Below are positions 31,557 through 37,262 of a DNA stretch of 64,000 nucleotides, piece by piece. The notes below the pieces were generated by a model. The model saw only the letters and a program-made list of their open reading frames with translations, did not search any database and had not been told where the DNA came from. The DNA is taken from contig NZ_SOAZ01000003.1 of assembly GCF_004364155.1 (NCBI RefSeq), forward strand, positions 62,001 through 126,000, read 5' to 3'. The stretch is from Fonticella tunisiensis (GTDB lineage Bacteria; Bacillota; Clostridia; Clostridiales; Caloramatoraceae). Position 1 is the first letter of the stretch. The number at the start of each line of letters is the position of its first letter. The position numbers and the translations under genes are program-made.

Positions 31557-33092
31557 CTATTTCTTTATAAGCTCGTTCATCTCTACTGCAATGCTCCTTA
31601 AATGTTCTGCACTTGCTGCTATCTCTTCACTCATTGCGGCATTTTGATTAAGGGATTCATTCAAAACTTTAAATTTATTCATGGCACTTTCTGTAATGGC
31701 AGCTATATTTGAATTGAATGATACAGCATTTTGCGTTTCTGACAGAAGAGTAGACATAAGTCCATTTATTTCTTTTATGTTTGCTCCAGATAACTTCAGC
31801 TCTTCAATCATTTTGTTTATACTTTCAGCCGTATTCCTTAGAATAGTATTACCTGATGTTATTTTTCCATTATTCTCTGTCATAAGTTCCTCTACCATGT
31901 TGGTTCTTGCCTTAAATTCGCCTACAATTTTACCAACATCATTTAAAGATTTTCTGCTGTTCTCTGCAAGCTTTCTAATTTCTTCGGCAACTACTGCAAA
32001 TCCTTTACCCATTTCACCTGCCCTTGCAGCCTCAATGGAAGCATTCAAAGCAAGTAGATTTGTCTGATCAGCTATGCTGCTTATTATTGATAGAATATCG
32101 TCCATTTCTCTTGACTTTTCCTCAAGAATCTTTGTAGCCTCAAATGTAGTTTCAATGCTTAACTTTATATCCTCAATAATGTCTAGGACGTCCTTCAATG
32201 ATTTTTCATTTTCGTTCGATACACTTATTAAGGTCTCTGAAGCCTCCTGAGTTTTTGCTATTTTTGCAGAAACAGTTTTATTGATATTAAGAAGCTTTTG
32301 AAGTATTTCCCTGTTCAAATTGGACTTATCAAGCATTTCATTACTATCTTCATTCAAATCTTCACTTGTACTTGCTATCTCCTGTATTGAGTTGTTTCCC
32401 TCCTCGGCGATATCCGATAAAGTTTCGCTGGCACTTAAAAGCGTCTGGGCAAAGTGCGACACCCTGTTAAACAATTTTAGAATGTTTTCATTGCTTTCCT
32501 TAAGTTCTTCCTCATTTTTCTCAATATCTTTTAAAAGCCTTGATGCAAACAGTGTAAAAATAAATATACCAAAGGATATTAAGCTTATGTCAATAATTCT
32601 TATTATTAATTCACGAACAAACACCTGATTCTCAGGCATAAGCAAAGGGTTAATGGCAAAGGCTGCTACCTGGCATCCAATGCTTATAATTATAGAAATT
32701 GTAATCATCCTTACATCCAGGAATAATGCCCCCAATATTATAAAATAAAAAACGCTTATCCATAGCTCCTTTGATGGAACCATAAAAACTAGGTAAGCAT
32801 AGTTTGTATATGAAATTATTAGGATTATACACTTTAAAAGTGGGAATCTCTTTTTCCAAGATTCAGCATTCTTCACTGTTATCTTATACATTGTCATGAA
32901 TATCGCCAATTCAACTGCAACTAATCCTGCTAATATGATTAGCTTTCTCCATGATATTTCATAGTACAATCCTAAAAGCTTCATCCCAATAAATAATACA
33001 CCTGCTAAAAAAGCGCTTATGGAATAAATGGTTAAAACAAACTTAAGTGTTTTCCTTTGATAACTTTCTATTGTACTTACTCTCTTTTCCAC
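31557..33092 (-). CDS. Methyl-accepting chemotaxis protein with a polytopic membrane sensor
   Basis: 511 residues. Instead of an outside ligand domain it has about six membrane helices in residues 15-190, then a coiled-coil signalling domain from about 200 to the end with the conserved hairpin tip [20 protein letters not shown] near 345-365 and [10 protein letters not shown]. It relays signals to CheA/CheW. It starts with GTG 33092 behind AGGTGA, 35 bases after the KAS-III-like gene, so both probably lie under the c-di-GMP riboswitch. The stop TAG is immediately followed by a REP-like GTGCCAGC. Confidence 0.92.
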
Positions 33093-33127: not shown

Positions 33128-34132
33128 TCACCACTTATATAATAAAGCTGCCATTGTATATCCTCCGGCAACGGAGCAGAATACTATTAGATCATCCCTG
33201 TCGAACTTTTCTCTTTTTAATCTGTCATCCAGTGCCATAATTGGACTTGCACAGCCTGTATATCCATATTTATTTCCCACAAAGGTAGTTTGCAAGAATG
33301 AAGCTCCTAGTTTTTCCAGCGTTAATTGAACGTCGGCCTTTGAAAACTGAGACATAAAATAATGGGTAACATCCTTTGTAGTATACCCATACTCCCCAAG
33401 CAAACTTGTAATAAGTTTTGCCCATTCATCAGAAAGAAAACTAAAATCAAATGGGTTCCATTCCATTTTCCTGTCGTATGAACTGATGCTTTCATCTGTG
33501 ATCTTTGAAAGCCCACAGGCTGGAAATCTTATTGTTTTATTGTATGTATCATCAGTAAACATCCTTGAACCTATAATTCCTCTTTCTTCTTCCTCTTCTC
33601 GTACCTCCAATATGACGGCTGCTGCACCGTCTGATATACATGAGTAAACAACAAGGTCATTTTCCCTTGCAAATGGGCTTATATTTATAGCTCCTACAAC
33701 CATTATTCTGCGATATTTCTTATCGGTTTTCAGATATCTTGCAGCTATATCCATTGCCGTAATCATTCCTATGCAGTCATTATTTATATCAAATACATTT
33801 GCTGCATTTTCAGCTCCTATTTCATTTTTTATAATTAGTGCACAACACGGAGTTAAATATTCTGGTGTGTCCGATGCCGATATAATTGCATCAATATCCC
33901 TTGCAGTAATTCCTGCATTTATCAGAGCCCTTTGAGCTGCCTCAACGCTCATCGTTATGCTGTTTTCATGTTCTTCAGCGAGGGTCCTTGTTTCCCTGCC
34001 CAGCTTGTTCATTAAACCAATGGCATGCTCCTTCATTCCATAGGCCTCAAAGTGATTAGCATAATATTCATTGTTTACTATCCTTTTCGGATGGTAACTT
34101 CCTACTCCTATAATACAAACATTTCTAAACAT
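33128..34132 (-). CDS. KAS-III (FabH)-like protein lacking the catalytic His and Asn
   Basis: About 334 residues with the thiolase fold of 3-oxoacyl-ACP synthase III. Cys120 (DINNDCIGM) stands at the nucleophile position. The second active-site block, usually PHQAN, reads MSQFS (His replaced by Ser261), and the third, usually YGNTS, reads YGYTG (Asn replaced by Tyr291). Chain-extending Claisen chemistry is therefore doubtful; acyl transfer to another acceptor is possible. ATG 34132 fits the GGAGGAG site better than the two ATGs before it. The gene follows a c-di-GMP riboswitch and precedes a chemoreceptor. Confidence 0.85.
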   Translation of the reverse strand: MFRNVCIIGVGSYHPKRIVNNEYYANHFEAYGMKEHAIGLMNKLGRETRTLAEEHENSITMSVEAAQRALINAGITARDIDAIISASDTPEYLTPCCALIIKNEIGAENAANVFDINNDCIGMITAMDIAARYLKTDKKYRRIMVVGAINISPFARENDLVVYSCISDGAAAVILEVREEEEERGIIGSRMFTDDTYNKTIRFPACGLSKITDESISSYDRKMEWNPFDFSFLSDEWAKLITSLLGEYGYTTKDVTHYFMSQFSKADVQLTLEKLGASFLQTTFVGNKYGYTGCASPIMALDDRLKREKFDRDDLIVFCSVAGGYTMAALLYKW

Positions 34133-34261
34133 ACGCATCTCCTCCATAAATGATAATTTTTAAGTCGGTCTAATTATTATGCTTTTTCTTGAGGATAATG
34201 CCCTTAGACAAAAATTGATAGCCCCAGAATGTACTATCCACCATAAAATCTAGCAGCATTA

Positions 34262-34342
34262 TACCTAGCAGCCTGGCTATCTTAGAAAACTCTCCTTAGA
34301 CCCATGGCTTTGCGTCCTTACCTTTCGATAAGTTTGCCCTTA
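34262..34342 (-). promoter_or_regulatory. c-di-GMP-I (GEMM-I) riboswitch
   Basis: The minus strand shows the GEMM-I aptamer: AGGGCAAAC, a hairpin TTATC-GAAA-GGTAA with its GNRA tetraloop, the invariant GGACGCAAAGCC, then a TCTAAGG receptor and GATAGCCAGGCTGC at the 3' side. GATAGCC within the aptamer can pair with GGCTATC about 55 bases downstream (near 34216-34222), which itself can form a short hairpin followed by TTTTT. Ligand binding would then favour termination (an off-switch); that polarity is inference. Output gene: the KAS-III-like gene at 34132, and probably the MCP. The rest of the 34133-34670 gap has the expression platform and a terminator. Confidence 0.93.
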
Positions 34343-34615
34343 TTAAGTATAAAGTTGTAATATTAAAATAGTAAATCATCACATATAGAATTTTCGACTG
34401 ATTACTACATATCTTTACATATTTTGTTGGCGGATAAACTGGAAAACAAGATTAATTCCAGGTTAAAGCTCTGATTTATCTAGCTTTCTCATATGTGTTA
34501 AGATTATTTAATCAACATCCTTCATTCTATAGCCTTAACCTTTATTTATGATGCACCTGAAATGTGATATATTGATGTAACTGGGATCTAAATATAACCT
34601 TAGTAGAATAGAAAA

Positions 34616-34670: not shown

Positions 34671-35051
34671 CTACCCAAACATAAACTCAGTTATAGTATG
34701 ATAAACCTTGAACAATAAACTATCCATTTTTTTATCCTTGAAAAATTTAAGTTCAATGTTCAGTCCACCGGAAAGTGTTAATTTTATTTCTGAATCCAGG
34801 TCAAATGTCCCTGCAGTTTCAATTGCATAGGTAACGATGCTTTTATAGGGTATGGAATAGTACTCAACTTTTTTGCCTGTTAAACCTTGTTTGTCTGCTA
34901 TTAGCATACGTTTATCCGTAAAAACCGCAACATCTCTGATTGTTTTTACTGAAAACTGAATTTTTTCCGATGGATGAACCAACCTTTGTAGTTCCTCGGT
35001 TACAGGCACTTCATTGTAGAAGTTAAAGATTTTGTTTACAGCCTCAGCCAT
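34671..35051 (-). CDS. Bacterial PH-domain protein (YvbH/DUF1696-like)
   Basis: 126 residues, nearly all one bacterial pleckstrin-homology-like barrel: VHPSEKIQFSVKTIRDVAVFT, then the characteristic FTDKRMLIADKQGL and YYSIPYKSIVTYAIET strands. Cytoplasmic. Proteins of this type assemble in rings, but the biochemical role is unknown. ATG 35051 follows GGGAGGT. Monocistronic. Confidence 0.85.
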   Translation of the reverse strand: MAEAVNKIFNFYNEVPVTEELQRLVHPSEKIQFSVKTIRDVAVFTDKRMLIADKQGLTGKKVEYYSIPYKSIVTYAIETAGTFDLDSEIKLTLSGGLNIELKFFKDKKMDSLLFKVYHTITEFMFG

Positions 35052-35262
35052 AACAATACCTCCCAATTGTATTATTTACTATTTTATCCTATTTTATAAT
35101 ATTTATCTATATTACCTTCAATTGGTACTATCTTAATAGTTGATTTTTAACAGGCTTTTTTAATTAATTCTCTGTCACCTAAACTATAACGCCAAGCCCC
35201 GGGACCTTTTGTGAATCCCGTCGTACTTTTTTAGAATTCATTATAGATATCACTGTGTTTTT

Positions 35263-35567: not shown

Positions 35568-37262
35568 ATGACAGGTTTACAGTATAATAGACAACAGAAA
35601 ATACGCGAAATAATATCAATTGTCAAATTAGCTTCCTTACTTCTAAGCGCAATAATTGTTTTTACACTCATTTCCAATGACGACAATGATGTTGTTTTTA
35701 GCAATACCGAATATTTTAGTGTTTTTTCCTTATCGCTGACATTTATTATATTAATACTTATATTTAGTATATGGTCATTTTCTTCTAAAAGAAATTACAT
35801 AACGAAACAGGATAAAATAAAACGCTGTATAGAAGATTCCATTTATATTTTAATATTTTCAGTGGTAATTATTATATCCGGAGGCTACACAAGCCAGTAT
35901 AAATTCTTATTTCTATTTATTATTATAACCTCAACCATACAGTCCGGTATTAAATGGGGAGCAGTTTTAGCAACTATATCATCCTTAATAATATTAGCAA
36001 TTGACCTTAGCTTCATTTCTAAAACCCTGGTAAACAAATATTTTGAGAATGACTTAATTTTGGTAGGAGTTTTCATACTCACTGCATGGCCATTAGGATA
36101 TTATGTGAAGATCGAAAGAGAATACGGCGAAAATCTATCACACTTGGTTAATATTGATGGGTTGACAGAAGTTTACAACCACAGATTCTTCCATGCCTCA
36201 CTAAAAAAAGAAATTGAAATATCCAAGAAATCAGGACGTCCAGTTTCAATAATTTTATTGGACATTAACCATTTTAACTATTACAACGAACTTAATGGTT
36301 GTCACTGTGGCGATCAGCTCTTAAAGGAAATAGCCCTTTTATTAAAGAAAAATATAAGGCAGCAAGACATTCTTACAAGATATAAAGGAGATGAATTCGC
36401 CATTATACTTCCAAATACAAATGAAGAAGGTGCTGCTGAATTATCTGAGAAAATTAGATTTGATATTGAAAATTGGAAGTTTAAAGGTAAAGAAAATCAA
36501 CCTGAGGGAAAGATTACAGTTTCGATTGGTACATCGACATTTCCTCAACATGGAAAAACTCATCTGGAATTAATAGAAAGTGCAGATGATGCGTTAAATG
36601 GAGTTAAATTATTTGATAAGAACAGGCTGGATAGTTGCTGCTCTATTCTGGATAAATTGAAAAAAGATATTGAAAAAGCTAATATCGATATAATAACCAC
36701 TGCTAAAACAATTCTAAGCATTATTGATTCTAAGGATAAATATACCTATGAACATACTGAAAGAATAGTTATGTATTCAGAGTTATTGGGAGAAAAACTT
36801 GGACTAACAGATGAGGATAAAAAAGTATTAAAATATGGAGCTTACTTACATGATATTGGAAAGATAAGCATTTCAAAGGGGATTTTAATTAAAAAAACGC
36901 CCTTGACAAATGCAGAATGGGAAATATTTAAGCATCATCCGATAAGCGGAGTAGAAATAATTAAAAATGTTGAATCACTTAAAGATGTAATTCCACTAAT
37001 AAGGCACCATCATGAAAGATATGACGGTACCGGATATCCAAATGGCCTTAAGGCGAACGAAATACCATATCTTGCAAGAATACTTGCTGTTGTAGACAGT
37101 TTCGATGCAATGACCTCCAACAGGCCATATAATAGTAAGCTGACTTGCTATGATGCAATTTTAGAATTAAAAAGATGCAGTGGAACTCAGTTTGACCCGA
37201 TTATTGTTCGGGCATTTATAGAGATAATTGAAGAGAATAAGGATAAATTTGATGCTATATAA
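35568..37262 (+). CDS. Membrane GGDEF plus HD-GYP c-di-GMP protein
   Basis: 564 residues. About six membrane helices (15-175); a GGDEF domain (about 190-350) with the signature altered to KGDEF at 273-277 and an RxxD inhibitory site (RQQD) nine residues before it; then an HD-GYP phosphodiesterase domain (about 365-560) with HDIGKI near 428, HHERYDGTGYP near 480-490. HD-GYP residues look complete, so c-di-GMP hydrolysis is likely; cyclase activity with KGDEF is uncertain. It lies 1.2 kb from the c-di-GMP riboswitch, on the opposite strand. Confidence 0.93.
   Translation: MTGLQYNRQQKIREIISIVKLASLLLSAIIVFTLISNDDNDVVFSNTEYFSVFSLSLTFIILILIFSIWSFSSKRNYITKQDKIKRCIEDSIYILIFSVVIIISGGYTSQYKFLFLFIIITSTIQSGIKWGAVLATISSLIILAIDLSFISKTLVNKYFENDLILVGVFILTAWPLGYYVKIEREYGENLSHLVNIDGLTEVYNHRFFHASLKKEIEISKKSGRPVSIILLDINHFNYYNELNGCHCGDQLLKEIALLLKKNIRQQDILTRYKGDEFAIILPNTNEEGAAELSEKIRFDIENWKFKGKENQPEGKITVSIGTSTFPQHGKTHLELIESADDALNGVKLFDKNRLDSCCSILDKLKKDIEKANIDIITTAKTILSIIDSKDKYTYEHTERIVMYSELLGEKLGLTDEDKKVLKYGAYLHDIGKISISKGILIKKTPLTNAEWEIFKHHPISGVEIIKNVESLKDVIPLIRHHHERYDGTGYPNGLKANEIPYLARILAVVDSFDAMTSNRPYNSKLTCYDAILELKRCSGTQFDPIIVRAFIEIIEENKDKFDAI

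Follow-up and report, generated by a model that had tools for sequence, protein, structure and literature searches.

A KAS-III-like subfamily with Ser and Tyr in place of the catalytic His and Asn of FabH, its pairing with chemoreceptors and its recurrent c-di-GMP-I riboswitch

What can a relative of β-ketoacyl-ACP synthase III (KAS-III) do once the catalytic His and Asn are replaced and only the nucleophilic Cys is kept? The gene that raises this question lies in a stretch of 64,000 nucleotides from Fonticella tunisiensis (contig NZ_SOAZ01000003.1, positions 62,001 to 126,000), which is referred to here as the window. The KAS-III-like gene occupies positions 33128..34132 on the minus strand and encodes a protein of 334 aa. 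The minus strand is the sole open one in this interval, with an ATG at 34132 and the sequence GGAGGAG just 5' of it. A gene on the plus strand at the same place is ruled out by its many stops.

A preliminary description, made from the letters of the sequence, had proposed a KAS-III fold for this protein, and both domain searches and structure prediction agree. The two Pfam halves of the family, ACP_syn_III (PF08545, 53.3 bits, cut-off 24) and ACP_syn_III_C (PF08541, 57.3 bits, cut-off 26.6), are above their cut-offs. The AlphaFold2 model, built with 16 sequences, has a pLDDT of 84.8 and a pTM of 0.87; the loops at residues 90-94, 202-210, and 222-228 are of low confidence (pLDDT <50). When the PDB was searched with this model, the 50 best entries were all KAS-III relatives, and the top fold match was Aquifex FabH (Z 40.2, rmsd 2.1, 306 residues aligned). 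The best NCBIfam matches are the fabH models, yet the score is far under the cut-off (135.3 vs 292.1 bits). The cut-off of PRK09352 is not reached (146 vs 249 bits). HMG-CoA synthase is ruled out, as the NCBIfam HMGCS models score 58.4, 35.9, and 27.2 bits against cut-offs of 244, 353, and 360 bits.

Alignments with PDB sequences place Cys120 (codon at 33773..33775, minus strand) on the FabH nucleophile, within a whole D119-C120-I-G block. At the position of the catalytic His, where FabH has PHQAN, the protein reads M260-S-Q-F-S264, and the aligned residue is Ser261 (33350..33352, minus strand). At the position of the catalytic Asn, YGNTS of FabH corresponds to Y289-G-Y-T-G293, and the aligned residue is Tyr291 (33260..33262, minus strand). 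The changes that had been read by eye, PHQAN to MSQFS and YGNTS to YGYTG beside a kept DC(I)G, thus fall on the FabH His and Asn positions.

The conservation of these residues was analyzed in an alignment of 34 members of the subfamily and 11 canonical FabH proteins from 11 genomes. The 34 members were chosen mostly by similarity to the window protein, with the exception of L069, which was found via its receptor partner. L017, which is frame-broken, and duplicates (L033, which equals L015, and rows with identical last 300 residues) are not among them. The canonical FabH proteins are those checked for His and Asn out of 25 further KAS-III matches. Cys120 is invariant in all 34 relatives. Ser is conserved at the His position and Tyr at the Asn position in 34/34 relatives, while canonical FabH has H and N at these positions in 11/11. 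This conservation extends down to 26% identity, which is the level of the L069 protein; that protein, recovered by the receptor N-terminus search alone, still has Ser and Tyr. Another His and Asn in the active site, which the preliminary description had given as grounds for refutation, were not seen by conservation. There is no invariant His column anywhere in the protein among the 34 members, the nearest being H14 (32/34) and H27 (33/34), so that none can be named as a clear replacement for the lost His. These two residues, together with R46, M123, and P297, are further marks of the subfamily. Glu91 is invariant where FabH has Asp. Around Cys120 lie conserved residues with acidic or amide side chains, among them the invariant N117.

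The roles of the three FabH residues are described in a study of PqsBC (PMC4807248): Cys112 of FabH is acylated first, His244 and Asn274 serve the decarboxylation of malonyl-ACP, and in the related PqsC the catalytic His is dispensable for formation of the acyl-enzyme. The window protein, which keeps Cys and lacks His and Asn, should therefore reach the acyl-enzyme without going on to the FabH condensation. Judged from its sequence, the loss of FabH-type decarboxylating condensation is well supported. It had been suggested that such a protein may transfer an acyl group, or may only bind, instead of condensing with malonyl-ACP. The KAS-III fold, the invariant Cys, and the replacement of both decarboxylation residues throughout the subfamily bear out the loss of malonyl condensation; transfer and binding remain as separate readings and are weighed below.

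Relatives in other genomes rule out a lone oddity of the genome of the window. The genome scan returned 15 related loci, mostly from Clostridium, with 40-74% identity. The gene is rare; a search of the class at E 1e-60 found it in 11 of 391 genomes, and a phylum-level search at a strict threshold found a match in 5 of 398 genomes. A canonical fabH with both His and Asn is separately present in the genome of the window, beside plsX and other fatty-acid genes, indicating that the KAS-III-like copy does not serve as the housekeeping enzyme. Of 16 genomes searched, 14 carry the subfamily, and every one of these 14 has one or more additional KAS-III matches. Subfamily members are 26-31% identical to the FabH copies encoded alongside them in a genome, as far as these copies are listed with a locus. 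In the tree, the subfamily and canonical FabH form two groups with 100/100 branch support (the midpoint root is for drawing only). The dN/dS ratio is 0.05-0.14 in close pairs (5 computable pairs of 7 tried), a sign of purifying selection. L008 comes from a Lutibacter sp. B2 record titled Bacteroidota. Its KAS-receptor pair is 65% identical to those of Clostridium and is placed among them in the tree, which may reflect mislabelling, contamination, or transfer.

Directly downstream of the KAS-III-like gene, a chemoreceptor of 511 aa is encoded at 31557..33092 on the minus strand. It starts 35 bases past the KAS stop. Its signalling domain is of the MCP type (PF00015, 119.8 bits, cut-off 34.6). 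The hydrophobic N-terminus has short loops and lacks a large extracellular domain; five hydropathy segments were counted in it at the threshold used, and six in most relatives. A same-strand receptor of ~510 aa lies directly downstream of the KAS gene in 16/16 loci of this receptor type (16/34 overall), namely the window, L003-L014, L032, L034, and L069. The outer flanks mostly differ among these 16 loci. Close kin are included (L003/L004, L005/L006, L007/L009, and L012-L014), and the 16 loci thus correspond to fewer independent lineages. A second type of receptor is arranged head to head with the KAS gene at all seven KAS copies in four Ruminiclostridium-type genomes. It is 22-23% identical to the receptor of the window and likewise has a membrane N-terminus and an MCP domain. 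At L015, L035, and L036, which are of this Ruminiclostridium type, the KAS gene and its head-to-head chemoreceptor are duplicated in tandem.

The pairing is also visible from the side of the receptor. When the receptor N-terminus was used as the query, a KAS gene adjoined the match in 4/4 genomes at E 1e-28 or better, and no KAS gene was adjacent to the weaker matches (26-27% identity) in 2/2. MCP domains occur at only six places in the genome of the window, in which CheW-type domains are present. The pairing of this KAS subfamily with chemoreceptors is well supported.

Receptors are not the only partners. Among the 34 members, 16 have the receptor downstream, 7 have the head-to-head receptor, 9 adjoin a gene for a small protein, and 2 (L040 and L052) have neither receptor nor small partner. 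The small protein is 113-133 aa long, with an open frame of 170 aa in L049. Its genes are at L048 5679-6017, L050 5726-6067, L051 7451-7798, L038 6141-6500, L039 7576-7971, L041 6092-6433, L042 7845-8243, L016 9182-9559, and L049 5349-5903; a further one adjoins the KAS gene of L017 (3998-4393), which lies outside the 34. It is a real family, since leave-one-out searches recovered 8/8 members with E values of 1e-25 to 1e-42. There is no credible match to it in Pfam, in NCBIfam, or among PDB sequences, and no match was found in the genome of the window itself. Without an alignment, AlphaFold2 gave a poor model of it (pLDDT 54). From the order of predicted strands and helices by eye, a SpoIIAA/STAS-like protein was considered; it was rejected, as there was no credible database match and PF11964 had no match in the carrier genomes G041 and G058. 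At three Paenibacillus-type loci (L049, L050, and L051), a TPP-dependent relative of acetolactate synthase and a CMD-family protein are followed by the small protein and the KAS gene. The assignment of the TPP-dependent enzyme and the CMD protein is based on Pfam for L050 and L051 and on likeness by eye for L049.

Upstream of the KAS-III-like gene of the window, a c-di-GMP-I (GEMM-I) riboswitch aptamer was found at 34263..34347 on the minus strand. It scores 69.6 bits with RF03167 (gathering score 59, E 2.1e-14) and 81 bits with RF01051 (gathering score 35), and it is 130 bases from the KAS start codon. No other RF01051 match was found in the 3.1-Mb genome, and likewise the only c-di-GMP-I match found in genome G352 is the one before its KAS-receptor pair; these genome-wide RF01051 searches scored 150 candidates per genome, and the genome of the window (G000) had 175 candidates. 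Elsewhere in G000, there is a c-di-GMP-II match below the cut-off (51.8 vs 53.5 bits). Among the 16 loci with a KAS-receptor operon, 11 have the riboswitch upstream of it (the window, L003-L007, L009, L012-L014, and L069). None was found in L008, L010, and L011, even at E 1, and none in L032 and L034 at the gathering score. No Rfam c-di-GMP-I match was found at the seven head-to-head copies. Two of the three Paenibacillus-type TPP operons are headed by a c-di-GMP-I riboswitch (L049 3077-3173 and L050 3223-3316); the third, L051, has none even at E 1.

The leader between aptamer and start codon (34133..34262, minus strand) contains a candidate weak terminator stem at 34217-34238, followed by a U-run at 34210-34214, as seen by sequence, folding, and duplex scan. 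In the folding and the duplex scan, the 3' arm of this candidate terminator can alternatively pair with GATAGCC of the aptamer. Hairpins with U-runs 3' of the aptamer are present in 9/9 relatives folded, and the candidate terminator of the window is weaker than theirs and hence tentative. The 3' strand of the aptamer can pair with the terminator region in several relatives; the competing duplex is weak in L012-L014 (-5.0 to -9.4 kcal/mol). Such pairing in some relatives suggests that the riboswitch may be OFF at high c-di-GMP. Terminator-like hairpins after an aptamer above the Rfam gathering score are also what is seen in the c-di-GMP-I riboswitches of Clostridium. Divergent from the operon and ~1.4 kb upstream of it, a GGDEF and HD protein with a hydrophobic N-terminus, of a type for c-di-GMP turnover, is encoded at 35568-37262 on the plus strand. 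It is conceivable that this protein supplies or removes the riboswitch ligand locally. A bacterial PH-domain protein (PF08000) is encoded between the GGDEF/HD gene and the riboswitch, at 34671-35066 on the minus strand.

A KAS-III relative without two catalytic residues, in an operon with a chemoreceptor behind a riboswitch, probably takes part in cell signalling and not in fatty-acid synthesis. The best explanation, which is held tentatively, is that the subfamily is a distinct and conserved group of non-condensing proteins acting as Cys-acylated acyltransferases, which make the ligand for the paired chemoreceptor under the control of c-di-GMP. An acyl group from acyl-CoA or acyl-ACP would be loaded onto Cys120, as the intact Cys block and the fold suggest. 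The exchange of His and Asn for Ser and Tyr would prevent the decarboxylation of malonyl-ACP, given the known roles of the exchanged residues. The acyl group might instead be handed to another acceptor, which would yield a small ligand that is acylated and probably soluble in membranes. This ligand would be sensed by the receptor through its membrane part, and the MCP domain would signal to CheA/CheW, which fits the CheW-type domains of the genome. The transcription of both genes would be set by c-di-GMP on the leader RNA, where the riboswitch is recognized by homology and its direction is only suggested. Several observations speak against this acyltransferase model. The receptor is replaced by a small soluble partner in 9/34 members and both are missing in 2/34, 5/16 receptor operons are without a detectable riboswitch, and the gene is as rare in the class as given above. 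Known KSIII acyltransferases use a Cys-His-Asp triad (PMC9573744).

In a different reading, the protein is a pseudoenzyme that senses acyl groups. It would bind acyl-CoA or acyl-ACP, or be stably acylated at Cys120, and its state would be read by contact with the cytoplasmic part of the receptor or with the small partner, without any product. This is possible, though doubtful. The residues for deacylation and condensation are both gone while Cys and fold are kept, and the partner is either a signal transducer (23/34) or the 113-133-aa protein (9/34); a readout between proteins would suit either setting. The transfer by CerJ and ChlB3 depends on His, and a transferase free of His would thus be unusual; this dependence and the small soluble partners tilt the balance toward the sensor reading. 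The operon with the TPP-dependent enzyme tilts it back toward the making of a product, as the Paenibacillus-type arrangement with its CMD protein looks biosynthetic, and the strict conservation of Ser, Tyr, Cys, and Glu91 in the active site suggests chemistry over mere binding.

Chemistry of another kind is improbable. An unusual condensing enzyme would join the acyl group to a non-malonyl nucleophile that carries its own activating group, leading to a ketone-like signal. PqsC, which is without the Asn, works in this way on 2-aminobenzoylacetate and makes a quorum signal (PMC4807248), and the acidic or amide residues around Cys120 with invariant N117, as well as invariant E91 in place of the FabH D, would suit such a reaction. 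However, PqsC keeps His269 while the KAS-like subfamily is without the His as well, and no precursor-making enzyme adjoins the gene in the receptor-type operons. The possibility that the protein is still a FabH able to condense, in which Ser, Tyr, or different side chains take the part of His and Asn, is very small despite the common fold and Pfam domains; the residues, the score under the NCBIfam cut-off, and the separate branch of the tree speak against it, as does the further KAS-III match in all 14 genomes with the subfamily among the 16 searched. A dead copy drifting after duplication has practically no probability. The loss of two catalytic residues would be expected of it, but the substitutions are conserved in 34/34, the operon and leader are conserved, and the low dN/dS, together with this conservation, rules out a drifting pseudogene.

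Several known systems can be compared. The protein has the KAS-III fold, size, nucleophilic Cys block, and both Pfam domains in common with FabH; it differs in Ser/Tyr for His/Asn, in its place outside the fatty-acid operon, and in its pairing with a receptor. PqsB and PqsC, which belong to the pathway of the P. aeruginosa quinolone signal, are also related to KAS-III and have altered triads (PMC4807248). PqsC keeps Cys and His and PqsB lacks all three residues, whereas the KAS-like protein keeps only Cys. PqsBC is a heterodimer of two KAS subunits, whereas each receptor operon contains a single KAS gene. CerJ and ChlB3 are KSIII acyltransferases with a Cys-His-Asp triad, and mutation of the His of CerJ abolishes transfer (PMC9573744); they perform acyl transfer on a KAS-III fold instead of condensation, as is proposed for the KAS-like protein. 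They belong to antibiotic clusters and not to receptor operons. Against their Cys-His-Asp, the KAS-like subfamily has no invariant His column, although H14 and H27 are nearly invariant. Altered KAS-III triads are thus already known in PqsB, PqsC, CerJ, and ChlB3, and a subfamily-wide Cys-Ser-Tyr was not met in the literature examined.

For the pairing, the CqsA/CqsS-type pairs of Vibrio offer a comparison of working principle only: here too, the gene of a candidate acyl-handling enzyme adjoins that of a membrane-sensing receptor (16/16 and 7/7 loci). CqsA is an acyl-handling, PLP-dependent enzyme, and its gene adjoins the gene for a receptor with a membrane-embedded sensing part. A quorum receptor of V. 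harveyi is described as 6TM (PMC4821796), and CqsS as a histidine kinase (PMC3310172). The partner here is instead an MCP with the signalling domain only, and the enzyme is a KAS-III relative. In the open-licence full-text literature, neither a KAS-III/chemoreceptor pair nor a KAS-III/receptor operon as a target of the c-di-GMP-I riboswitch was found. The terms '3-oxoacyl', 'ketoacyl', and 'methyl-accepting' are absent from the C. difficile regulon paper (PMC6200980).

Annotation pipelines would label this protein as β-ketoacyl-ACP synthase III; from its residues, its function is almost certainly not that. With its Cys retained and its His and Asn exchanged throughout for Ser and Tyr, the subfamily provides a natural test of the role of each residue. 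The chemoreceptor pairing and the recurrent c-di-GMP riboswitch tie acyl metabolism to motility signalling in Clostridia. A farther-reaching and rather unlikely proposal is a communication module, in which the KAS-III relative free of His and Asn would make a diffusible acyl-derived signal and the adjacent receptor would detect it, so that cells would swim in relation to a lipid-like cue of their own making, and would do so only with the permission of c-di-GMP; the Paenibacillus-type operons, with the same subfamily, a TPP enzyme, and a c-di-GMP riboswitch, would be a second version. If a product exists, it would represent a class of signals made and sensed by neighbouring genes.
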